Assembly (NCBI GenBank): GCA_002748665.1
Contig: PDTB01000004.1
Location: 1 to 37,089, forward strand
DNA: 37,089 nucleotides
Origin: Dethiosulfovibrio peptidovorans
GTDB taxonomy: Bacteria; Synergistota; Synergistia; Synergistales; Dethiosulfovibrionaceae
Reading direction: 5' to 3'
Position numbers and translations under genes: made by a program. The notes beneath the pieces are model-generated. The model saw nothing but the letters and a program-made list of their open reading frames with translations, made no database searches and had not been told where the DNA came from. Shown one piece after another: positions 20,219 through 34,594 of the stretch (position 1 is its first letter; the number at the start of each line of letters is the position of its first letter).

Positions 20219-21229
20219 GTGAAAAAGAGTTTTATGGTGTTATCTCTCTCCATTCTTTTGGTAGGCGTTTTGAGTTTTATCTCCTTGGCTAAAACGTCGC
20301 CTGTCGTTTTTCTGGACGAGAGCTGGGATAGCGCGCAGGTTCACAATCGTATTGCTGCGTATATCGTAAAGCATGGGTATGAGCGAAAGGTCGAGTTTCT
20401 CTTTTCTGAGACGTTGCCCGGTATGCTTGGATTGGAGAGAGGGGACGTCCATATTTGTCTGGACGTGTGGGTGAATAACACTCCCGAGTGGTGGGCCAAA
20501 GCTCAGAAAAAGGACTCGCTGGTCAATCTAGGTGTGAATTACCCCAACGCCCCTCAAGGTTGGTATGTTCCGACATATGTTATCAAGGGAGATCCCGAGA
20601 GAGGAATTGAACCTGTTGCCCCTGATTTACAATATGTGGACGACCTTGAAGCCTATGCCGGGATCTTTAAGGATCCTGAGGATCCCTCCAAGGGACGTTT
20701 CTACAACGCACCGCCAGGTTGGAAAATCTCCAGTATCAATGAATACAAGATGAAAACTCTAGGATTGGACAAAATCTACGTGATTTTCTCTCCGGGTTCC
20801 GACACGGCTCTTCAGACCGTGGCACGGGCCAGCTACAAAAAGGGCGAGCCTGTTATTTTCTACTACTGGCAACCTACGGCTCTCATGGGCTTGTTTGACA
20901 TGACTCGTCTGAAGGAAAAAACTCCCTATGACGTGGCGAAGTGGAACGAGAAGGCTGGATATGGCTGTGATTTTCCCGCACAGTCAGTGCTCAAACTGGC
21001 CAACGCCAATTTTGCTGAAGCAAATCCCGAGCTTATCGACTTTTTTCGTCGTTATGAGACAACTCTGGGGATGAACGACCAGATACTGGCCCGCCGCTCT
21101 GTGGACAATCTCTCCCTTGAGGAGACAGCCATCTGGTTTCTCAAAACGTACCCGAATATCTGGAGAGCGTGGATTCCTGAGGATCGTCAGGATGTTCTGA
21201 AAAAGGTCAACCAGGTGCTAGGTCTGTAA
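20219..21229 (+). CDS. Glycine betaine/choline-type ABC transporter substrate-binding protein (OpuAC/ProX family)
   Basis: A 336-residue secreted protein with a signal peptide (MKKSFMVLSLSILLVGVLSF, cleavage near SLAKT) and an OpuAC-type domain. FLDESWDSAQVHNRIAAYI opens it, as in ProX-like proteins. GDVHICLDVWVNNTPEWW and GWYVPTYVIKGDPERGI supply aromatic residues typical of quaternary-amine cages, and PVIFYYWQPT is also typical. The GTG start has AAAGGAGG about 8 nt upstream. No permease or ATPase gene lies in the window, so it is either an orphan feeding a transporter elsewhere or a sensor component. Ligand assignment (betaine, choline, proline or carnitine) is by family only. Confidence 0.88.
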   Translation: MKKSFMVLSLSILLVGVLSFISLAKTSPVVFLDESWDSAQVHNRIAAYIVKHGYERKVEFLFSETLPGMLGLERGDVHICLDVWVNNTPEWWAKAQKKDSLVNLGVNYPNAPQGWYVPTYVIKGDPERGIEPVAPDLQYVDDLEAYAGIFKDPEDPSKGRFYNAPPGWKISSINEYKMKTLGLDKIYVIFSPGSDTALQTVARASYKKGEPVIFYYWQPTALMGLFDMTRLKEKTPYDVAKWNEKAGYGCDFPAQSVLKLANANFAEANPELIDFFRRYETTLGMNDQILARRSVDNLSLEETAIWFLKTYPNIWRAWIPEDRQDVLKKVNQVLGL

Positions 21230-23702: not shown

Positions 23703-23750
23703 TATAGAAAGCTCCTAACTGGTGAAGTTGAAGTCAACGCTAAAAAAAGA

Positions 23751-23779
23751 ATTATACACTTCCTTCTCTACATCGACAA
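23751..23779 (-). promoter_or_regulatory. Promoter of typA
   Basis: On the minus strand TTGTCG and TATAAT are separated by 17 nt, and TG directly precedes the -10. Transcription would start about 40 nt before the typA ATG. Confidence 0.85.
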
Positions 23780-24374
23780 GTATAACCGGTAAGGTGCAGA
23801 AAATGACGGCTTTTTTGCAATTCAGGTAAGAGTTGGAGGGCGAAAAGACCGGGAAGGAGAATGAGGTACCCCTATCTTTTACACATGTACTTAATCTGTA
23901 CGTTTGCAGTCGCTCTCCATCGTAGTGTCTACAGAGGAGCTATTTCCAAATAGGAGGTATAAGAAGAGACCTGATGTTCACAGTAACCCAGGAATACGAA
24001 GATCTCAAAGAAGCCTGAGAAAAACAGAGACACCATGGCTAAAAAGCTCGAGAGGATAGGACTCAAAAACCTGCTAAGCTTCATCATAGAGGTCAGGAGG
24101 AGGCTCCAATGTTTTTTCACTTCGTGCCTCGGAGTATCGGCTCTTCTTTTGGTAACTGTGAGAGTAGGACACGCAGCCTCAAACAAGTATAGCGCAAGAG
24201 CATAAATAAACGTGAGGGATCTCCTAGAACAGAGACGAGATCAGGAAGACGTTTCTGTCGCTCGTAAAGATCCTTAAAACAAAAAAGTAGCCCTCATAGG
24301 TTTGATAGCTCAAGGATAAAAAGCCTAAAAGACTGAATAAGACCACGGCCTGACGTCAGGTTATGGTGTATAAG
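23780..24374. other. Intergenic region with a possible small membrane protein ORF
   Basis: This stretch of about 595 bp between divergently placed units has one candidate. A minus-strand frame at 23929-24120 starts at a GTG with CGAGG 6 nt before it. It would make a 63-residue hydrophobic protein with one strong membrane stretch (SPILSSFLAMVSLFFSGFF). I recognise no family. Codon context is weak, so it may be chance. Confidence 0.3.
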
Positions 24375-24408
24375 AAAAGAGGCTCTCTTTGCCGAGAGAG
24401 CCTCTTTT
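24375..24408 (-). terminator. Hairpin terminator downstream of the diguanylate cyclase gene
   Basis: A perfect 14-bp stem (AAAAGAGGCTCTCT with AGAGAGCCTCTTTT) has a 6-nt loop. It lies 33 bp past the minus-strand stop. T-rich flanks on both strands could allow two-way function. Confidence 0.75.
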
Positions 24409-24441
24409 GTGTACTTATACGCATAAAAAATTTGAGGTGTT

Positions 24442-25602
24442 TTATAAAACCACGGTGCAGTTTTTGCCCCTCTCTTTTGCCTGATACATGGCTTGATCCA
24501 CCAACTTTAAGACATCCTGCATATTTTCATTGTTGTCCTTATTCAGTTGGACAACGCCAAAACTAGCAGTAATATGGAGGTCTTTGGAAAATTCTGCTGA
24601 GGCAATCGCTTCCCGAAGCTTTTCAGCGACGTTAAATGCCTGTTCTTTATCGGTTTTGAGGAGGCCCAGGATGAATTCCTCCCCCCCCCATCGAGCGAAT
24701 AAGTCGGTACTGCGAATGTTTTTTTGGATGAGTGCAGATATATCCATTAAAAGATCATCGCCTATAAGGTGCCCGTAGGTATCGTTCATGTTTTTGAAGT
24801 TGTCCAGATCAAACATGATTAATGAAAAAGCCTCGTCTTGTTTTTGAGCAAAATGAATAGCTCGAGAGGCCTGTTCGTAGAAATCCCGGCGATTTGATAT
24901 GCCTGTGAGGGTATCAGTCCGAGCCTGATGGTCTATCTTCTGGAATTGCAGGGCGAGCTTCTGTCTCATATTCTCGATAGCCCGGCCCAAGTGGGAGAAC
25001 TCGTCTTGATCGGTCCATGCACAGGCTCCATCCGTAAGTTGCGATGATATTTTTTCCGTCTGGTCTAAAAGTCGATGGATTGGTCGAGCTATCGTTGTCC
25101 GAAACACCACCGATGTAATGCAAAAACTCGACAAAAAGAGGAGTAAAAAAACAACGATTGTTGTTTGGAAGTTCCACAGCAAGTTGTTCATAGCCGGTGT
25201 CATTGAAATACTGATTCGGACGGAGCCTACAGGGAGGTCGTCAAAATAGGCTATTTCCTCGCAGGTGTAGAGATCCTTGTGTGAACGAAAGGGAATCTTT
25301 ATGTGAGCGAGGGAGATATCGAATACGCTTGAGTAGATATCAACCTCAACGACGTTTTCATTGAGGGCAACAAGTTGGGCAGCTCGAAGAACCTGCTGAG
25401 GCGCAAAATATTTCATAGGTTCGGCGACACATTGAGCGAGAGTCTTCGTGTTTTCTTGGGTACAATGAATCAAGGAGTCTCGAACGTTGTTTCTTTCGCT
25501 CATTGTCAACAAAACAAGCCCTCCAAAAAATGGGAGGAAAAAGGCTAAGAAGAGCCAGAAGAAAAATTTAGAAATTTTGTTATTGACAATATTATTGTTC
25601 AT
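24442..25602 (-). CDS. Membrane diguanylate cyclase with periplasmic sensor region and HAMP-like linker
   Basis: This enzyme makes cyclic di-GMP from two GTP. The 386 residues show a membrane span near 12-34, a roughly 110-residue extracytoplasmic region (35-145), a second span near 146-166, a HAMP-like linker (167-220) and a GGDEF domain (225-386). The active-site motif is intact as RWGGEEF (GGEEF 306-310), and the inhibitory RxxD site is present as RSTD (297-300), five residues before it. DNFKNMNDTYGHLIGDDLL is the substrate-binding stretch. The start has no visible Shine-Dalgarno; the region before the ATG is A/T only. It begins 15 bp after a BMP-type binding protein gene on the same strand, suggesting the two proteins work together. 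Confidence 0.92.
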   Translation of the reverse strand: MNNNIVNNKISKFFFWLFLAFFLPFFGGLVLLTMSERNNVRDSLIHCTQENTKTLAQCVAEPMKYFAPQQVLRAAQLVALNENVVEVDIYSSVFDISLAHIKIPFRSHKDLYTCEEIAYFDDLPVGSVRISISMTPAMNNLLWNFQTTIVVFLLLFLSSFCITSVVFRTTIARPIHRLLDQTEKISSQLTDGACAWTDQDEFSHLGRAIENMRQKLALQFQKIDHQARTDTLTGISNRRDFYEQASRAIHFAQKQDEAFSLIMFDLDNFKNMNDTYGHLIGDDLLMDISALIQKNIRSTDLFARWGGEEFILGLLKTDKEQAFNVAEKLREAIASAEFSKDLHITASFGVVQLNKDNNENMQDVLKLVDQAMYQAKERGKNCTVVL

Positions 25603-25617
25603 ATTTTTTTAATTAAT

Positions 25618-26601
25618 TTAGTCGATTTTCTTGGGTTTTTTGATTTTTCCAAGTATGATATCGCATTTTATATATCTAAGCCTCTCTTTTATTTTCTGGG
25701 GAACCAGCCCCTCTTGGACACCATCGAATTCCAGTCCCACTATATCTTGAGCTAGTCCTATTCGCTTGACTTTACATTGTTTTAACCCTGAGAGCGGCAT
25801 CTGTAGAGCTATAGGTATGATTTTATTCAGCCGCTTGACCATTGATCCGATCATGGAGCCAGGATGAAGATGATTTTGGTTCTTGTCCATTCCGATAGCA
25901 TAGATGCCACTCTCCGCAGCCTGGGCCAGAACGCCCGTTCCTGCGAATCCGGCAACGGCAAAGAGAACGTCAGCACCCTTTTTGATCTGTTGCGCCGCTA
26001 TGTTTTGCGCTTTTGCGACGTCATACCACATTCCAGGATAATTGCCCAAGGTACTTTCCAGAATTTGAACGCTTGAGTTTACCGAATGAACGCCATGCTT
26101 AAATCCGGCTTGAAATTGACGAAGTATGGGATAGTCATTATTTGTGTATATGAAGCCGACAACGTTCGTCTTGGTCATGAGAGCAGCTAAAGCACCAGCC
26201 ATGAAAGAACCTTCGTAGTTGCTGAATTGAAAGATTCGAACGTTTGGAAGATCGATATCTTTTACACAGTCCAAAAGAACAAAACGAACTTCTCTGTGGC
26301 TTTCGTATTTTTGAATGGCATCGAGAACCCTCGGGGAGTTGTAGGGAAGTACGATAGGTGAGTAGCCATTAGCGACACTTTCTTTTATTTTTGCGATATA
26401 ATCTACCTCTTCTGAGACGGCTTGGATTTCAATACACTCTTTATGGGTGCTGTTTCTAAACGCCTCGACTCCTTCGTGAATAGCTTGATTGTAGGCTCCA
26501 ACGTTAGGATCTCCTCTGTAAATGACAACTGGCGTTGCCTGTGCCGTGTTTGGCACAGTAAACAAAAGCATCATCAGCAACAGAACGATGCTCAGCTTCA
26601 T
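25618..26601 (-). CDS. BMP-family (PnrA-like) periplasmic ligand-binding protein paired with a diguanylate cyclase
   Basis: A 327-residue secreted protein with a signal peptide (MKLSIVLLLMMLLFTVPNTA, cleavage near QATP) and a two-lobed periplasmic-binding fold. The first lobe has VVIYRGDPNVGAYNQAIHEG. FSNYEGSFMAGALAALMTKT matches the ligand-loop block of BMP/Med proteins, and GADVLFAVAGFAGTGVLAQA and IYAIGMDKNQ resemble their second lobe. BMP proteins usually bind nucleosides for ABC importers. Here no permease or ATPase is adjacent; instead the next gene encodes a membrane diguanylate cyclase. A role as the ligand receptor for that enzyme is my inference. The ATG follows GAGAGGG. Confidence 0.85.
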   Translation of the reverse strand: MKLSIVLLLMMLLFTVPNTAQATPVVIYRGDPNVGAYNQAIHEGVEAFRNSTHKECIEIQAVSEEVDYIAKIKESVANGYSPIVLPYNSPRVLDAIQKYESHREVRFVLLDCVKDIDLPNVRIFQFSNYEGSFMAGALAALMTKTNVVGFIYTNNDYPILRQFQAGFKHGVHSVNSSVQILESTLGNYPGMWYDVAKAQNIAAQQIKKGADVLFAVAGFAGTGVLAQAAESGIYAIGMDKNQNHLHPGSMIGSMVKRLNKIIPIALQMPLSGLKQCKVKRIGLAQDIVGLEFDGVQEGLVPQKIKERLRYIKCDIILGKIKKPKKID

Positions 26602-27263
26602 GGTTACGACCCTCTCTCAATAAAACAGAAATAAATATTAATTAAACATTGCGCGATTATTTCGTGAATGACCCCAGATATCACAATGTGAATGCTTGAC
26701 TTGCCTACCTGAATTTGCTGGACAGAGGAGTATTCGCATTTACTAGAGAACAGGGTAGGCAGCTTATCAACAGCCCTGCAAACGTCACTCTGGTCGTGAG
26801 AGTTGTCAGAACTCTTGGGGGCAAGCACCTTCGTACTTAGGGGTTTTATACTTTATCTGATTGTCCTATGATGGAGGCAACACATTTTTTATCTGAGAGT
26901 GCACATGGTGAAATAGTACTTGGAGTTACATCGGACAGAAACAGGTTGCCCAAGTCCCTGGATACGCTATGGAGGGCAGATGCTTTTTTGTGATTTTTAC
27001 CCCAAGGATCTTTGCGCTCTCTTTGAGAAGCTGGCTCTGGATTTTATTCTAATGAGGATAACTTTCTGTTCGAATGGCGATTTTTTATTTTTTAAAACGT
27101 AAGGATTTTAATATAGCCAATCATTTTTGTCAAGTAGGCACTGTGATAGCATGTCATTGCCCAGAGGTGAAGTTGTCCTGTAAATGCTCAAAAAAACATG
27201 TCACCCTCGCTTGAAAGAAAGGATTGATCGGGAAGAATATATCGAGTTAAGTTGCGACCATAT
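26602..27263. other. Gene-poor region upstream of the sensor pair
   Basis: About 660 bp without an intact gene. The only coding-like sequence is the frameshifted ORF at 26868-27102. No clear consensus promoter for the leftward binding-protein gene is visible, though the 26602-26660 stretch is very A/T rich. Confidence 0.5.
26868..27102 (+). pseudogene. Frameshifted small ORF (possible pseudogene or frameshift gene)
   Basis: The frame from ATG 26868 reads MMEATHFLSESAHGEIVLGV, then TSDRNRLPKSLDTLWRADAF, and stops at a TGA just after a run of six T (26984-26989). Removing one T joins it smoothly to CDFYPKDLCALFEKLALDFI and on to a TAA at 27102, giving about 75 residues. Both parts look protein-like, so a single slip or mutation in the T run is plausible. 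No family is recognised and the ribosome site is weak. Confidence 0.3.
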
Positions 27264-27973
27264 GGCGACCTCTAATAAATCCCTCTCTAAGAAGAGAGAA
27301 TGGCTTCTGCCCCTCCCTAAGATAAAATGGTACAATACCAATTATAACTAAAAGCTTGGAAAGGGATGCTACGCCGCTGAAACAGCGTCTCCTCCTTGTA
27401 GAAAAAATCGTCTACGATACCTTGATATGCTGAACGGCCCACTGGTATGTGTCAACGAAACGCTGGAGAAGTTTATTCATTGACGGGAACTTGCGAGGAT
27501 CTCCAGATATAGGGCTGAACTCCCCTTTTCACCTCTTCTCGGACAGGCAGGGAGATCGAAATCGATCCGAAACCCAAAACTGTGTGGAACACGCATTTGG
27601 AGTTCAAGCCATGGAAGCGGGAAAACTGATCCTTTGAGGCATCGGGAAGATACAAACCTCCACCGCCATAGCTTTGTGGAACCTGGCCTATACCACCACT
27701 CGATTCTCGTACCTGATAAGACAATCAGGGACGCTGTATTTTGCCTCAAGATACCATCAGGCACCATGTAAATCGAGAGACACCTATGGCCTAAGCAAGT
27801 TCTTGCGGCTTTTAGTCTTATCTTCTGTTGTTTCATCTGTCGTTTTTTCTCAAAATGTAACTTTTTGACTGTAGAGCATGCGTTCAACTCACAAGAAAGC
27901 CTGTGGGATAAAGGCAAGAGGTCTGTGGCTTATTTTTCAGCGACCTGTAGTTTTTTCGTTTTTAGAGGTGACC
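27264..27973. mobile_element. Probable decayed insertion sequence
   Basis: The stretch is bounded by GGCGACCTCTAATAAA (27264-27279) and, inverted, GGTCACCTCTAAAAACG (complement of 27957-27973), which look like degenerate terminal inverted repeats. The same motif occurs at 5302-5318. Inside the left end is a promoter-like box (27319-27343) also present at 5351-5375. Frames inside are broken by stops; one begins with coding-like ATPLKQRLLLVEKIVYDTLI and meets a TGA. No transposase motif can be recognised, so the family is unknown. The 9-mer GACCTGTAG occurs on both sides of the right end (27942-27950 and 27970-27978). Confidence 0.4.
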
Positions 27974-28004
27974 TGTAGAGATTCGGAAGTTCCAGAAAAA
28001 AGAC

Positions 28005-28142
28005 CGATGGCCCATATCGCTCTGCCATCGTGATTATGAGGCTCAATGTTATGGGGAGAACGAAAGACGGTATCTCCGTGCTGGTGTGGATCTCTACACG
28101 CACAACTTGTTGAGATAGAGATTTGATGGTTCGTTTTTTTTT
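28005..28142 (+). ncRNA. Structured leader upstream of the zinc-ribbon/ArsA operon
   Basis: A 7-bp stem CGATGGC/GCCATCG (28005-28011, 28024-28030) is followed by a second fold. There ATCTC (28072-28076) pairs with GAGAT (28112-28116) around a nested GTGC/GCAC and GTGT/ACAC helix. An alternative helix ATCTCTA/TAGAGAT (28090-28096, 28116-28122) excludes it. A run of T (28134-28142) follows, 26 bp before the first gene. It could be an attenuator, but no known riboswitch class is recognised. Confidence 0.3.
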
Positions 28143-28167
28143 GTGGTGCTATGAGAGGGAAGATTGA

Positions 28168-28482
28168 ATGAAGGGCTTTGAGTTACAGTTGAAAAACTGC
28201 TCTCTTTGTGGCCGAGCGTTTTTTGGAACCTTTGACGAGATGGCCTGTAAAAAATGTGAGAGCCGCTATCGTCAGTTACGTGAGAAAATCCGAAATTACC
28301 TGTGGAATCATCCGGGCCAAAAAGCTACCTTGACGAGCATCTCTCAGGATCTGAATATCCCTTTGGAGATCGTCAAGGTGTTTCAGAAAGATCCTCGATT
28401 TCAAGGTGTGTTTGACGAAAATGAGAGGGCAAAAAGAAGGACGACTTTCGCCCGACAGATTGAGGGGAGGAGACGGTCATAA
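28168..28482 (+). CDS. Small zinc-ribbon/HTH-like protein (YvyF-like)
   Basis: A 104-residue protein with two Cys pairs near the N-terminus (CSLCGRAFFG and CKKCESRY), a likely zinc ribbon. A short helix-turn-helix-like segment (ATLTSISQDLNIPLEIVKVF) follows, then a basic C-terminus. The layout resembles the flagellar-operon regulator-like YvyF proteins, though no flagellar gene is nearby. It could act as a DNA- or RNA-binding regulator. The ATG follows GAGAGGGAAG. It is the first of three closely packed genes ending in an ArsA-family ATPase. Confidence 0.7.
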   Translation: MKGFELQLKNCSLCGRAFFGTFDEMACKKCESRYRQLREKIRNYLWNHPGQKATLTSISQDLNIPLEIVKVFQKDPRFQGVFDENERAKRRTTFARQIEGRRRS

Positions 28483-28484
28483 AG

Positions 28485-28754
28485 CTGCGAAACTTTTTGT
28501 ATTGGGCAAAACTCTTTCTGTTCGGTACCTTCATGGATAAGCGACACGGGGTCATTCGTAAGGAGGCTTTTGACGAGAACGACGATCTGATGCTTCTTCT
28601 GTTCGGGGAGTTCCTGGGGATCCCTAATCCCATTTCCTATTACACTCTGGAGCTTCTTCCCTACGTCGTGACCGAGTTGGAGCCATGGGAACGGCGGATA
28701 CAGAACCGAAAGATGATTTTGGCGGAGAAAGCGGCCCAGTTCGACTTTGACTGA
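28485..28754 (+). CDS. Small conserved-looking protein next to ArsA-family ATPase
   Basis: About 89 residues, acidic with an aromatic core: FDENDDLMLLLFGEFLGIPN, then PISYYTLELLPYVVTELEPW. From memory this resembles the small 'cory-CC-star' proteins encoded beside ArsA-like ATPases in actinobacteria and haloarchaea, but the C-terminal Cys-Cys of that family is missing here (ends AQFDFD); this is unverified. The start is unusual. GGGGAGGAG (28464-28472) lies ahead of an ATA at 28479 that overlaps the previous stop (ATAA) and of a CTG at 28485. The first standard codon, TTG at 28497, is 24 nt from the ribosome site. I give the CTG start tentatively. Confidence 0.7.
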   Translation: MRNFLYWAKLFLFGTFMDKRHGVIRKEAFDENDDLMLLLFGEFLGIPNPISYYTLELLPYVVTELEPWERRIQNRKMILAEKAAQFDFD

Positions 28755-28778
28755 GCACGATTGGGGAGGGGGAGCTTT

Positions 28779-29812: not shown

Positions 29813-30739
29813 TCAGCGTTCCTCCCGATAGAACGGGGTGCCAAGGGCGGCCGGTGCTCCGAAGAGGATACCTTGTCCCTTTCGGATGGAGATAACCAGG
29901 AGGACAATGATCGTCAATACGTAGGGGAGCATGAGAAGCAACGGTGCCGGGATGTTGGTCCCAGCCGCCTGAATACGAAGCTGACAGGCTTCGACGCCAC
30001 CGAAAAGGTAGGAACCGAAGGCGGCTCGGGCGGGGTTCCAGATGGCGAAGATCACGAGGGCAACGGCTATCCATCCACGACCAGCGGACATTCCCTCGGT
30101 CCACATATGACTGTACGAGATGGAAAGATAGGCACCGCCGATCGCCACGATACCACCGCCGATGACGGTGTAGACGTATCGAATAAGGACGACCGATAGT
30201 CCTACCGAGTCGGCGGCCTGGGGACTATCACCCACTGCTCGAAGATTCAGTCCTGCTCTGGTTCGCCAGAAGAACCAGCAAAGGAAAAGTACCAGGCCAT
30301 AGGAAAAATAGACTAATGGATCGTGATCGAAGAAGACTGGGCCAATAAGGGGAATTTGAGCGAGTCCGGGAATCGGTCTCTTAGTCAGTCCCACGATGGT
30401 TTGGCCGATATACTCTCGCCCCATGATTGCCGAAACGCCCGTTCCTAACATGGTCAGGGCCAGCCCGCTGACGACCTGGTTCCCGCCCAGAGAGACGCAA
30501 ACTGCTGCGTGAATGAGGCTGAAAAAAGCCCCGACTCCGAAGGCTATTGCGACGCCGAGCCAGGGGGTCCCCGTGGCAGAGGTAACGACGAATCCTGATA
30601 GAGCACCCAGGAGCATCAGGCCCTCCAACCCCAAGTTCATGACGCCGCTTTTCTCGGTCACGATCTCGCCCAGCGTGGCGTAGAGGATGGGAGTTCCGCT
30701 TCGCACGGCAGCTGCCAGGATAGGGATAACGATCTCCAT
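29813..30739 (-). CDS. BMP-type ABC importer permease (second permease, NupQ/YufQ-like)
   Basis: A 308-residue membrane permease of the branched-chain/nucleoside ABC class (BPD_transp_2). It has about 8 to 10 spans and the family markers GEIVTEKSGVMNLGLEGLML, NQVVSGLALTMLGTG and TRAGLNLRAVGDSPQAADSV. That last loop contacts the ATPase. With the next permease it forms the transport channel. The ATG follows GAGGAG by about 9 nt and starts directly after the stop of the preceding gene. It is the last gene of the operon, ending before the shared terminator. Confidence 0.92.
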   Translation of the reverse strand: MEIVIPILAAAVRSGTPILYATLGEIVTEKSGVMNLGLEGLMLLGALSGFVVTSATGTPWLGVAIAFGVGAFFSLIHAAVCVSLGGNQVVSGLALTMLGTGVSAIMGREYIGQTIVGLTKRPIPGLAQIPLIGPVFFDHDPLVYFSYGLVLFLCWFFWRTRAGLNLRAVGDSPQAADSVGLSVVLIRYVYTVIGGGIVAIGGAYLSISYSHMWTEGMSAGRGWIAVALVIFAIWNPARAAFGSYLFGGVEACQLRIQAAGTNIPAPLLLMLPYVLTIIVLLVISIRKGQGILFGAPAALGTPFYREER

Positions 30740-30740
30740 G

Positions 30741-31805
30741 TTATATGTTCTCCTCTACGACAACAAAGCGATACCGACGGAAAAACTCTCCCGCCAGGAT
30801 AAAAAACAGGATACAGCCCTGAACCACAAGAGTACTGGCGATAGGCAGCCCCATAACGATCTGAAGGGACTCGCCTCCTACGAGTAATCCTCCCATAAGA
30901 AAGGAGACCACGGCGATAGCCAGAGGATTGAGTCTGGCCAGCCATGCCACGATGATGGCTGTGTAGCCGAATCCCCCTGAAAATCCGTGCTGGAGCCGTC
31001 CCTGGAGGCCAGCGACCTCGCTCATTCCCGCCAATCCTGCGATGGCTCCCGATATGAACATGACCACGACGACGTTCTTCACGTAGTTCATTCCAGCGAA
31101 CGTAGCGGCCTTGGGATTTTCTCCAATGACCCGAATTTCGTAGCCCCAGCGGGTACGCTTGAAAATCCACCAGGTAACCAGCACGAGCCCCAGTGCCAAG
31201 AAAAGCCCTGAATGCACCCGACCCCATCCTAACTCCACAAGTCTGGCCGATTCAGGGAAGGGAGCCGTCATGGGAAAGCCAAGGCTGGACGGATCTCGCC
31301 ATGGTCCGTAGACGAAGTAGTCCATCAGATGGATGGCGATGTAGTTCATCATCAAGGTCGTGATAATCTCGTTCACGTTCCACCGGGCTCGAAGATAGCC
31401 AGCGGTGCCAGCCCATATCCCTCCAACGACGATGGCCAAAGTAGCCATGACGGTCATCATGGCCCAGTGGTTCTCCATGGGAAAATATCGCACCGCCGCC
31501 GCTGCTGCGATGGCCCCCATGAATATCTGTCCCTCGGCTCCGATGTTCCAGATGAGCATCTTGAAGGAGAGCATCACTGCCACTGCCGTCATGGCGAGGG
31601 GGATAGCCTTCACCATACACTCACTCAGGCCGTAGCTGTTTCCAAAGGCTGAGATGTACATTTCCCGGTAGGCTTCGAGGGGGGAGACTCCCATAGCCAT
31701 CAGGAACAGACCGCTGGCCCCGAATGCCAGTACGAGCCCTGCCGTGGGGATGATGATGTCCAACCATAAGGGGTGATCAGGGCGTTTTTGTCGTTTGAGT
31801 CTCAT
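30741..31805 (-). CDS. BMP-type ABC importer permease (first permease, NupP/YufP-like)
   Basis: A 354-residue permease with an N-terminal cytoplasmic basic stretch (MRLKRQKRPD) and about 9 spans. Family markers are AEGQIFMGAIAAAAAVRYFP, RWNVNEIITTLMMNYIAI and RTRWGYEIRVIGENPKAATF (coupling loop), with GFSGGFGYTAIIVAWLARLN following. Its start overlaps the ATPase stop as ATGA, implying translational coupling. It pairs with the downstream permease to form a heterodimeric channel for nucleosides. Confidence 0.92.
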   Translation of the reverse strand: MRLKRQKRPDHPLWLDIIIPTAGLVLAFGASGLFLMAMGVSPLEAYREMYISAFGNSYGLSECMVKAIPLAMTAVAVMLSFKMLIWNIGAEGQIFMGAIAAAAAVRYFPMENHWAMMTVMATLAIVVGGIWAGTAGYLRARWNVNEIITTLMMNYIAIHLMDYFVYGPWRDPSSLGFPMTAPFPESARLVELGWGRVHSGLFLALGLVLVTWWIFKRTRWGYEIRVIGENPKAATFAGMNYVKNVVVVMFISGAIAGLAGMSEVAGLQGRLQHGFSGGFGYTAIIVAWLARLNPLAIAVVSFLMGGLLVGGESLQIVMGLPIASTLVVQGCILFFILAGEFFRRYRFVVVEENI

Positions 31806-33349
31806 GAGGCTGATCCTCCCAGGCGGTCCATCTCGGTTCCAGCCATCATCATGCCAATTCTCTCAATCCCGAAGGATGCGGGCTCCTTCACCGTCCCCAT
31901 GATAGAGCCTCGATACATGATGGCCAGGCGGTCACTTAAGAAAAGAAGCTCATCCAGGTCCTCCGATATGAGGAGGATAGCCGTTCCCTTTTCCCTTTCC
32001 TTCAGAATCTGTTCACGGACGAATCGGGTAGCCGCCACGTCGAGTCCCCAGGTGGGATTCATGGCGATGAGGACGTTGGGAACGTCGCTGAGCTCACGAC
32101 CGAGCATGAGTTTCTGGATGTTGCCTCCCGAGAGGTTACGTACTGGGGTCTCCACCGATGGTGTGTCGACGTTGAAATCGGACACGATGTGCAGGGCGTG
32201 ACGCAGGACGGCTTTCCAGTCGATGAGTACGCCATAGGCTACAGGCTTCCGCCAATATCGCTTGAGAGTGGCGTTCTCCCGAACGTCCATGTTTGAAATC
32301 ATCCCCGTACCTTTTCGGTCGGCCGGGATGTACCGGACGCCTGAGTCTATCATCAGCCTGGAGCCTTTGTCCGTGACGTCCTGATCGTTCAAAATCAGGG
32401 TCCCTGCTGTGGGCTTCCTGAGGCCGGCCATAACCTGACAGAGCTCGGTCTGGCCGTTGCCGGCTACACCGGCTATTCCGAGTATTTCCCGTTCTCTGAT
32501 CTCCAGGGAAACCTGATGCAATGCGGTAAGTCCGCGGTCGCTCGTAGCGCTGATGCCATTCACCTGATACACAGACCGGCCCGGGGTCAATGGTTTTTTG
32601 TCCATGTCGAGGGTCACCTGCCGGCCGACCATCATCTCGGCGATCCCCTCTTTGGTCACCTCATCGGTTCGGACGGTCTCCACGAGTTTCCCTTTTCGGA
32701 GGACCATGACCCGGTCGGAGATCTCCATGACCTCGTCCAGCTTATGGGAGATAAAGATGATCCCTCTGCCCTCAGTGGTCATTCTACGCACTGTGGAGAA
32801 GAGGTTTTGGGCCTCCTGGGGAGTGAGGACGGCCGTGGGTTCGTCCAGAATGAGGACGGTAGCCTCCCTGTACAGAGTTTTGAGGATCTCCACTCGTTGC
32901 TGTTCCCCAATGGAGAGTTGCCATATGAGGGCCTCTGGATCGATGTCCAGACCATATTGTTCCGATATGGACCTGATCTCGGCAATGACCTTTTTCTTAG
33001 GAAGTATCTGAGGGGTTCCGTGGTGTCCCAGGATCATGTTTTCCCACACTGTCTGAGATGGAACAAGCATGAAATGTTGATGAACCATGCCGATGCTGGC
33101 GGCGATGGCATCGTGAGGAGAGCTGAACACTCGTTGCTGTCCGTTGATAGTGATCTGGCCACTGTCGGGGCGGTAGAGTCCCGACAGTACGTTCATCAGG
33201 GTGGACTTTCCGGCACCGTTCTCCCCCAGAAGCGCCAAAACTTCCCCCCCATGAAGAACCAGATCGACCTGATCGTTAGCTCTGACGTCCTGAAAGATCT
33301 TGGTGATCCCCTTCATGGACACCAACTCGGTCGAGACCGGTTCGGTCAT
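31802..33349 (-). CDS. BMP-type ABC importer ATPase with two nucleotide-binding domains
   Basis: A 515-residue tandem ATPase as in sugar and nucleoside importers. Domain 1 has Walker A GENGAGKST, the Q-loop region VHQHFMLVP, signature LSIGEQQRVEILK and Walker B VLILDEPTAVL. Domain 2 has a degenerate Walker A (GVAGNGQTE), signature LSGGNIQKLMLG and a weakened Walker B VLIAMNPTWGLD, lacking the usual Asp-Glu. So probably only domain 1 hydrolyses ATP, as is normal in this family. The ATG at 33349 follows AAGGGG; a GTG three codons earlier is too close to it. Confidence 0.92.
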   Translation of the reverse strand: MTEPVSTELVSMKGITKIFQDVRANDQVDLVLHGGEVLALLGENGAGKSTLMNVLSGLYRPDSGQITINGQQRVFSSPHDAIAASIGMVHQHFMLVPSQTVWENMILGHHGTPQILPKKKVIAEIRSISEQYGLDIDPEALIWQLSIGEQQRVEILKTLYREATVLILDEPTAVLTPQEAQNLFSTVRRMTTEGRGIIFISHKLDEVMEISDRVMVLRKGKLVETVRTDEVTKEGIAEMMVGRQVTLDMDKKPLTPGRSVYQVNGISATSDRGLTALHQVSLEIREREILGIAGVAGNGQTELCQVMAGLRKPTAGTLILNDQDVTDKGSRLMIDSGVRYIPADRKGTGMISNMDVRENATLKRYWRKPVAYGVLIDWKAVLRHALHIVSDFNVDTPSVETPVRNLSGGNIQKLMLGRELSDVPNVLIAMNPTWGLDVAATRFVREQILKEREKGTAILLISEDLDELLFLSDRLAIMYRGSIMGTVKEPASFGIERIGMMMAGTEMDRLGGSAS

Positions 33350-33385
33350 GGATAGCACATCCCCTTCATGATCTCTCGATCATAA

Positions 33386-33416
33386 ATTATGAGGGCACCT
33401 AAGGTACCCTCATAAT
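33386..33416 (-). other. Intercistronic hairpin between binding-protein and ATPase genes
   Basis: A 10-bp perfect stem ATTATGAGGG/CCCTCATAAT extends by three more pairs across one mismatch, on a 3-nt loop. Without a strong T tract it more likely protects the 3' end of the binding-protein message, giving more binding protein than transporter. Confidence 0.65.
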
Positions 33417-33457
33417 CATATACCGAAGTCCGTCTTTTTCAAAATGAACGTCAGGGA

Positions 33458-34546
33458 CTATTTGGGAATGGTTGCCTCAACTCCCTGGACGAACCAATCC
33501 ATGCCGAGCATCTCAGTATCGGTGAGCTTGACGCCATCGGGGACCTTGATCTTGCCGTTCTGATCCCAGATGGGGCCCCAGAAAACATCCCATGTACCCG
33601 AGATAATAGCTTTCTTTCGAGACTCCACCGTCTCTTGAAGGCCTTTAGGAACGGCTTTGCCAAAGGGGGCCAGGGCGACGAGCCCTTCCTTGAGGCCCCA
33701 CCAGATCTGCCGGGGCTCCCAGACGCCCTCGGAAACCTGCTTCACCGTGTAGTCATAGACCGTGCCCCAGTGCCAGATGGGAGCCGTCAGGTGCATTGTT
33801 GGAGCGAAGGTGGACATGTCGTCGTTGTACCCGATGACGTAGACCCCAGCTTCCTCGCAGGCCTGAGGAGCCGCACCGCTGTCGGCATGCATGCCGATGA
33901 CGTCAGCTCCCGAGTCGATAAGGGCTTTGGCGGCTTCCTTTTCCTTACCGGGATCGAACCAGGAAAAGAGCCAGATAACCTTGACTTTAACCTTGGGGTT
34001 GACGCTCCTGGCTCCCAGGGTGAAAGCGTTGATCCCCCGGATGACCTCGGGAATCGGCTGAGCTGCCACATACCCCAGAACGTTGCTTTTCGTCATGGAG
34101 CCTGCCACGATGCCCGAGAGGAAACGGGGCTGGTACATGCGACCAAAGTAGGTCCCCATGTTAGGCGCTGTCTTATATCCCGAGCAGTGCATAAAGTAGA
34201 CGTCTGGATGGCGCTTCGCCTCGTCCACCATAAAATCCATGTAGCCGAAGGAGTTGCCGAATATCACGTTGCATCCCTTGCGGATAAGGGTCTCGATGAC
34301 TCGAGCGGCGTCGGGGCCCTCAGGGACATTCTCGACGATGACACTTTTGGACAGTTCAGGGATTTGCTGGTGCATGTACTGTCGGCCTTGATCGTGCATG
34401 TACGTGTAGCCACCGTCGCCAACAGGCCCGATATACACGAACCCCACGTTGATGTCCTGGATTGGAATCATCTTCATAGCGGCCAAGGCCGCCCCTCCCG
34501 TGATAACGGAGAAACACAGAGCCAGAATCAGTGCCGATTTCTTCAT
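33458..34546 (-). CDS. BMP-family ABC importer substrate-binding protein (nucleoside type)
   Basis: A 362-residue secreted protein with a signal peptide (MKKSALILALCFSVITGGAA, cleavage near ALAAM). There is no lipobox cysteine, so it is probably free in the periplasm. Family blocks are NVGFVYIGPVGDGGYTYMHD, RVIETLIRKGCNVIFGNSFG, QPRFLSGIVAGSMTKSNVLG, DVIGMHADSGAAPQACEEAG and VYVIGYNDDMSTFAP. BMP proteins bind purine nucleosides or related compounds. The ATG at 34546 has AAGGAGG 8 nt upstream; an upstream in-frame extension lacks a site. It leads the importer operon and is divergent from gpt, which supports a purine ligand. Confidence 0.93.
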   Translation of the reverse strand: MKKSALILALCFSVITGGAALAAMKMIPIQDINVGFVYIGPVGDGGYTYMHDQGRQYMHQQIPELSKSVIVENVPEGPDAARVIETLIRKGCNVIFGNSFGYMDFMVDEAKRHPDVYFMHCSGYKTAPNMGTYFGRMYQPRFLSGIVAGSMTKSNVLGYVAAQPIPEVIRGINAFTLGARSVNPKVKVKVIWLFSWFDPGKEKEAAKALIDSGADVIGMHADSGAAPQACEEAGVYVIGYNDDMSTFAPTMHLTAPIWHWGTVYDYTVKQVSEGVWEPRQIWWGLKEGLVALAPFGKAVPKGLQETVESRKKAIISGTWDVFWGPIWDQNGKIKVPDGVKLTDTEMLGMDWFVQGVEATIPK

Positions 34547-34594
34547 CGAACATACCTCCTTCAATGGTCGTGAATCACGCTTCACATCACTATA

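Follow-up and report, generated by a model that had tools for sequence, protein, structure and literature searches.

The anaerobic bacterium Dethiosulfovibrio peptidovorans possesses an intact pair of adjacent genes that encode a predicted periplasmic binding protein of the Bmp family (BMP1), whose members usually serve in the uptake of nutrients, and a predicted membrane diguanylate cyclase. Judging from their sequences, the two proteins are somewhat more likely than not to form a two-protein module for carrying an input from outside to inside. The pair is real, intact and plausible, and narrow in distribution. It lies in a stretch of 37,089 nucleotides, hereafter the window, whose relevant features are listed below.

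25618–26601, minus strand: BMP1, a Bmp-family periplasmic binding protein of 327 amino acids (PF02608, hydropathy)
24442–25602, minus strand: predicted membrane diguanylate cyclase of 386 amino acids (Pfam, hydropathy, motif)
25603–25617, minus strand: intergenic gap of 15 bp between the BMP1 and cyclase genes
24375–24408, no strand assigned: intrinsic terminator 3' of the cyclase gene, 14-pair stem (fold and consensus scan)
27105–27133, minus strand: promoter-like site TTGACA-17-TAAAAT, 11 of 12 matches, about 500 bp upstream of BMP1, from a scan that as a whole was near chance (9 sites found against 5.6 expected, sd 2.9)
23703–28760, no strand assigned: low-G+C stretch between typA and the arsA gene (composition)
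29813–34585, minus strand: complete Bmp importer (BMP2, ATPase, two permeases)

Organization of the gene pair

The two genes are codirectional, with BMP1 first. The ATG of BMP1 is preceded by GAGAGAGGG, which on direct reading resembles a ribosome-binding site, and no clear ribosome-binding sequence is found ahead of the cyclase ATG within the gap. Behind the cyclase gene, the region 24360–24440 folds with −29.6 kcal/mol (z −7.9 against shuffles); this strong predicted terminator closes the BMP1-cyclase unit, and its nearly symmetric stem could act on both strands. No permease or ATPase gene adjoins BMP1.

The G+C content of the stretch around the pair is mostly 0.41–0.46, with 0.55 in the last block, and is 0.44 in each of the two genes, whose third-position values are 0.45–0.50 versus 0.60–0.71 in three neighbours. 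Apart from the pair, no gene is recognised between 23703 and 28760, where two further open reading frames have no Pfam match. The part upstream of BMP1 (26602–28760) comprises about 2 kb of mostly low G+C with no recognised gene and is possibly decayed. The BMP2 importer and the arsA block are conserved across the genus with about 75–87% identity, and we judge that this importer is not part of the sensor. Elsewhere in the window, a gene for an OpuAC-type (glycine betaine) binding protein (20219–21229, plus strand) stands seemingly alone near dnaK/dnaJ.

The predicted diguanylate cyclase

Hydropathy places two hydrophobic spans at residues 14–32 and 149–167 of the cyclase, which leaves a 116-residue outer loop (residues 33–148). 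They are followed by a HAMP domain (residues 168–216, E 1.6e-5) and a GGDEF domain (PF00990, residues 228–381, E 2.1e-45, 154.8 bits). At residue 297 the sequence reads RSTDLFARWGGEEF, an RxxD-X5-GGEEF arrangement in which the product-binding RxxD (I-site) precedes GGEEF by five residues, the canonical spacing. With the domain match, the GG[DE]EF motif and RxxD all present, the protein belongs with the GGDEF diguanylate cyclases and is predicted to be active. No EAL domain is matched up to E 1, and a Pfam search of the outer loop with a limit of E 10 gives no match to CHASE8 (PF17152) or any other family. An AlphaFold model from a three-row alignment (mean pLDDT 52, residues 33–144 under 50) is too poor for structural comparison.

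BMP1 and its ligand pocket

BMP1 is a member of the Bmp family, matching PF02608 over profile positions 12–297 of 301 (E 1.4e-44; 152.7 bits against a gathering threshold of 24.1). This is its sole Pfam match up to E 1, and no polyamine-type binding protein family is matched. Its single N-terminal hydrophobic segment is signal-like and lacks a lipobox-like cysteine. The anatomy given in an earlier, sequence-only reading of this DNA holds: two same-strand genes 15 bp apart (the gap at 25603–25617), a secreted BMP-family protein without a permease or ATPase beside it (PF02608, hydropathy and neighbours), a two-span GGDEF enzyme with intact GGEEF and RxxD and an outer region of roughly 110 residues (116 by our count), and a full BMP importer 3 kb away, which starts 3.2 kb upstream of BMP1.

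Sequence relatives of BMP1 in the PDB are Lbp, PnrA, BmpD, TmpC and BmpA. According to the available text of PMC13325309, the nucleoside pocket of BmpA includes Asp24, Phe27, Phe176, Asp225 and Lys242, plus Asp19 and Asp98. In our own residue alignment, whose mapping covers the first five of these and not Asp19 and Asp98, the BMP1 counterparts are Val34, Tyr37, Trp192, Asp239 and Lys256. Four of the five mapped positions are kept in kind, namely the aromatics at 37 and 192, Asp239 and Lys256, and Val34 replaces the Asp24-equivalent, which is Asp in 25 of 25 other aligned Bmp proteins. Based on these residues, the ligand of BMP1 may possibly be nucleoside-like, and it is just as likely to have changed relative to a nucleoside.

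The suggestion in the sequence-only reading that BMP1 is a recruited duplicate of the binding protein of the neighbouring importer finds no support. The tree places BMP1 and BMP2 apart from each other, their identity over the matched stretch is 26% (45–47 bits), and their pockets differ; BMP2 carries Asn and Trp at the positions where nucleoside binders have Asp225 and Lys242.

Importers of the source genome

The source genome has 4 Bmp matches and 17 matches to the BPD_transp_2 permease family (PF02653). Two importers, C4 (that of BMP2) and C7, have an adjoining Bmp gene. For a third (C8), the Bmp gene lies about 1.4 kb off on the opposite strand and another frame intervenes, so its assignment to that importer rests on nearness. 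The remaining six permease loci are accompanied by Peripla_BP_6 (four), Peripla_BP_4 (one) and a DUF3798 protein (one, C20). Inspection of all 17 permease matches showed that each BPD_transp_2 importer found has a candidate binding protein at or near its locus. BMP1 therefore has neither adjoining ABC genes nor, within this survey of PF02653 permeases, an importer lacking a binding protein to which it could be assigned. BMP1 could still share an importer in trans.

A second pair in the genus

Another Dethiosulfovibrio genome (G003) contains a pair on a contig of 3,327 bases (L053), with the Bmp gene at 683–1654 and the cyclase gene at 1656–2906, separated by 1 bp. Gene order and the span-loop-span-HAMP-GGDEF plan of the cyclase are the same as in the window, and the genomic sites differ. 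The two pairs are divergent, with 25% identity between the Bmp proteins and 26% between the cyclases. The G003 cyclase has GGEEF, and RxxD is absent from its usual place. There is no detectable homology between the outer loops of the two cyclases (hhalign E 0.83), nor do their N-terminal halves align convincingly (hhalign E 0.031, probability 0.8%). In a relative, G005, the same genes flank an orthologue of the G003 cyclase (L123, 1408–2745), which has GGEEI in place of GGEEF, and the Bmp gene is missing there except for short ends. A cyclase of the G003 type is thus not lost when its binding protein goes, and the apparent loss of the Bmp gene in this relative counts against co-dependence of Bmp and cyclase.

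The seven genomes of the genus contain 24 Bmp matches, of which G003:C27 is a fragment at the start of a contig, and 120 GGDEF matches, of which one scores below the family cut-off. A Bmp gene directly upstream of a GGDEF gene occurs twice among them, in the source genome and in G003, and match coordinates reveal no Bmp near GGDEF in five of the other six Dethiosulfovibrio genomes. With these match numbers and an assumed density of one gene per kb, chance would give about 0.08 codirectional Bmp-then-GGDEF neighbours in the genus, and 2 are observed. The chance of two such neighbours is about 0.003 analytically and 0.005 by random placement, and 0.04 for any neighbour in any orientation. Because the window pair itself prompted this estimate, only the second pair counts as independent evidence, where about 0.075 are expected in the other six genomes. 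The source genome has 6 GGDEF matches versus 18–22 per genome in these other six.

Distribution beyond the genus

We inspected 90 distinct Bmp frames of Synergistota, which come from the upper part of the matches listed and leave most of genus g5 outside. ABC genes lie within 1.5 kb of 69 of them, 19 have none of the genes sought nearby (some of these are at contig ends) and 2 have a cyclase. Lone Bmp genes in the phylum adjoin ychF, a feoB-like gene or a Na/Pi cotransporter gene, so the absence of an importer alone does not make a sensor. Those beside ychF include L104, L106 and L120 of family f4; the feoB-like neighbour is identified by Pfam at L100 and suggested by similar N-termini at L072, L104, L106 and L116.

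When 185 Synergistota genomes were searched with the N-terminal halves of both cyclases (window and G003), three strong matches were obtained, i.e., both queries and G005; the weaker ones, among those listed, mainly covered the second span and the HAMP part. A widely conserved Synergistota sensor is rejected by these numbers, as 2 of 90 Bmp frames have a cyclase, both in Dethiosulfovibrio, and 3 of 185 genomes have a strong match to the sensor half. Outside Dethiosulfovibrio, no Bmp-GGDEF pair was found in the Synergistota neighbourhoods, 21 plasmid neighbourhoods and two genome-contig scans, the last being the sole reach into chromosomes of other phyla. BMP1 as a single query matched nothing in the genome-contig and viral-contig sets, and a two-row Bmp alignment searched against the genome contigs yielded two loci, the G003 contig and a lone Bmp of a Desulfovibrio metagenome-assembled genome (MAG). 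Conservation of the pair in relatives, an expectation of the sequence-only reading, has mostly failed: a second, divergent pair exists in the genus, but the other five genomes are without one.

Origin of the pairs

A tree of 100 rows places BMP1 in one clade with Bmp proteins from proteobacterial plasmids (Azospirillum, Marinobacter, Aeromonas and others); the Bmp of G003 groups with the lone Bmp of the Desulfovibrio MAG (100/97). The marked branches require two separate gains of the cyclase-paired state, with the proviso that both cyclase-paired rows have branches over 2 and that such rows may be misplaced. BMP1 reaches up to 164 bits with plasmid Bmp proteins and no more than 115 with other Bmp proteins of Synergistota; this comparison used a first reduced set, which left out ten loci with long or odd rows and all rows under 66 bits or 230 residues. 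A second reduced tree, also without L204 and nine more rows (seven long-branched, two kinase-paired), puts BMP1 on the branch that connects the two groups. The L204 row (Acetoanaerobium) belongs to Bacillota and lies inside the group other than the proteobacterial one.

From these sequence comparisons, a foreign origin of BMP1 and two origins of the cyclase-paired state are likely; both remain tentative because of the long branches and the position of BMP1 between the groups in the reduced set. The low G+C content and the position beside the arsA-BMP2 block agree with acquisition. The BMP1-cyclase unit was apparently acquired by Dethiosulfovibrio peptidovorans alone, and another member of the genus probably gained a comparable Bmp-GGDEF pairing independently.

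Kinase-paired Bmp genes on Azospirillum plasmids

The plasmid neighbourhoods comprised 20 of 54 matching records and one more, with 22 distinct Bmp frames: 14 with ABC genes, 2 with a kinase gene and 6 with none of the genes sought; none of the 21 contains a Bmp-GGDEF pair, and the sensor half of the cyclase had no match on plasmids. The two kinase-paired Bmp genes are on AZO_p2 of A. lipoferum (L195, 2920–5543) and pAB510a of Azospirillum sp. B510 (L197). The Bmp and kinase genes of AZO_p2 overlap by 10 bp, and the B510 arrangement is alike (overlapping or abutting). Both kinases have HATPase domains (81–90 bits). That of AZO_p2 also has HAMP, weak matches to HisKA (E 0.0012) and CHASE8 (E 0.0018) that are below the Pfam cut-offs, and hydrophobic spans flanking an outer part, a topology similar to that of the window cyclase. 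By analogy, these cases make signalling through Bmp proteins more plausible.

Two further observations concern these plasmids. An EAL-domain gene is next on AZO_p2, on the other strand. On pMAQU02 of Marinobacter nauticus (L192, 2884–4584), a 566-residue protein has an N-terminal Bmp domain and about 250 further residues without a Pfam match, which look like a second binding-protein domain; the protein contains no hydrophobic span by our scan.

Proposed mechanism and alternative explanations

Gene order, protein families, topology, motifs, the terminator and the absence of an adjoining ABC partner are read from the sequence, and on this basis we propose the following model. BMP1, free in the periplasm, would bind a small molecule, possibly of the nucleoside class, and close. 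Ligand-loaded BMP1 would then dock on the outer loop (33–148) of the cyclase dimer, and the resulting change would pass via the second span and HAMP and alter, in either direction, the turnover of GTP to c-di-GMP by the GGDEF domain, with product feedback expected at the RxxD site. The source genome has 6 GGDEF, 1 EAL and 1 PilZ match, so a small c-di-GMP network exists into which such an output could feed. The sensor interpretation of the sequence-only reading is partly supported, by the anatomy of the pair, the second pair, the importer survey and the Azospirillum kinases, but not by conservation, and the idea of a duplicate has to be given up.

An alternative that we regard as unlikely, though of some weight, is that BMP1 serves in trans as a subunit of some Bmp-type ABC importer encoded at another locus, its adjacency to the cyclase being incidental or a matter of co-expression. 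Most Synergistota Bmp proteins do look like importer subunits, given the ABC genes near 69 of the 90 frames. Bmp genes without the sought neighbours are common (19 of 90, including some at contig ends), e.g., beside ychF or the Na/Pi transporter gene, and the C8 Bmp gene likewise does not directly adjoin its presumed importer. However, each BPD_transp_2 importer found in the genome has a candidate binding protein nearby, and the tight spacing of BMP1 and the cyclase gene, the terminator behind them and the G003 pair all argue against incidental adjacency. Less probable still is that both genes were picked up as neighbours in a mobile or degraded segment and have no functional tie. Such a history would suit a low-G+C island that stands beside a conserved block, is absent from the other genomes of the genus and has flanks without recognised genes, and the G005 relative did lose its Bmp gene and keep the cyclase. 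Against it are the intactness of both genes and their motifs and the recurrence of the same order with a 1-bp gap in G003, which brings the count in the genus to two where about 0.08 are expected.

It is also conceivable, but very improbable, that BMP1 needs no small-molecule ligand to control the cyclase and acts on it as YfiR does on YfiN, being a periplasmic inhibitor or stress sensor. The valine in place of an aspartate found in all 25 other aligned Bmp proteins, and a cyclase plan (span, loop of about 115 residues, span, HAMP, GGDEF) that resembles that of YfiN, would fit such control; the other mapped pocket positions are nevertheless kept, and the loop lacks a Pfam match, to CHASE8 or otherwise. 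Ligand-dependent control of the cyclase by BMP1 remains the explanation that we prefer.

A more general and rather doubtful idea is that Bmp proteins are a portable sensing front end, which separate lineages would have repeatedly paired with a HAMP receptor of two spans. The output would be GGDEF in the two Dethiosulfovibrio cases and a kinase in Azospirillum, and an extracellular ligand, nucleoside-like or altered, would directly set c-di-GMP or a phosphorelay. If so, the lost aspartate of BMP1 would mark a ligand changed for sensing rather than salvage. Judging from the Azospirillum kinase pairs, one input module may serve more than one kind of output. With a Bmp input, lifestyle control would respond to extracellular nucleosides or a related small molecule, and the pair would offer a testable ligand-receptor pair in Synergistota.

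Comparison with known systems

Binding-protein control of c-di-GMP enzymes has, to our knowledge, been worked out for few inputs. The arrangement in the window has the layout of receptors controlled by solute-binding proteins, i.e., a binding-protein gene beside a two-span receptor gene and no importer of its own. Homologues of NspS-MbaA of Vibrio cholerae reportedly occur in Sinorhizobium. In NspS-MbaA, the ligand state of NspS sets the activity of a membrane c-di-GMP enzyme (PMC8967002), and both systems combine a periplasmic solute-binding protein with such an enzyme. NspS binds polyamines, whereas BMP1 belongs to the Bmp family, a difference in input that the sequence-only reading had anticipated and that the sole match to PF02608 confirms; MbaA carries both GGDEF and EAL, whereas the window cyclase has GGDEF alone. 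Because its binding protein is of another family and EAL is absent, the BMP1-cyclase pair is not a member of the NspS-MbaA system. By analogy, it is probably a binding-protein-controlled cyclase that would work like NspS-MbaA, with an unusual input protein.

In Salmonella, the periplasmic amino-acid-binding protein ArtI is required for the response of the cyclase STM1987 to arginine (PMC8846402). This is again a periplasmic binding protein with a membrane cyclase, but ArtI is not a Bmp protein, and the outer domain of STM1987 is dCACHE_1, unlike the window loop, which has no Pfam match. In the available part of that article, SBP_bac_3 is given as the sole PBP-clan domain studied among c-di-GMP proteins (PMC8846402). 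Another paper reports that 13 of 22 binding-protein families interact with receptors (PMC9602780). Our literature search found no paper joining the BMP family, a diguanylate cyclase and a substrate-binding protein, no title on a Bmp-controlled cyclase among the matches listed and no paper combining Dethiosulfovibrio and c-di-GMP; the available part of a survey of Azospirillum two-component systems contains no occurrence of BMP (PMC4618731).

The nucleoside binders TmpC, BmpA, BmpD and Lbp of the Bmp/PnrA group share the Pfam family and most mapped pocket positions with BMP1. Such proteins are described as importer subunits, with direct interaction with an importer not yet shown for BmpA (PMC13325309); BMP1, in contrast, has no adjoining importer and lacks the Asp24-equivalent.

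YfiN/DgcN consists of a span, an outer domain of about 110 residues, a second span, HAMP and GGDEF, and has the periplasmic partner YfiR. It resembles the window pair in receptor topology and in having a periplasmic partner, but BMP1 is a full solute-binding protein and the window cyclase has no CHASE8 match. The Azospirillum pairs are similar to the window pair in that a Bmp gene overlaps or abuts the gene of a HAMP receptor with an outer domain, and differ in having HATPase output instead of GGDEF and N-terminal halves that are about 17% alike. The general principle, control of a c-di-GMP enzyme by a binding protein, is known; if experiments bear out our proposal, the Bmp-family input would be its new part.
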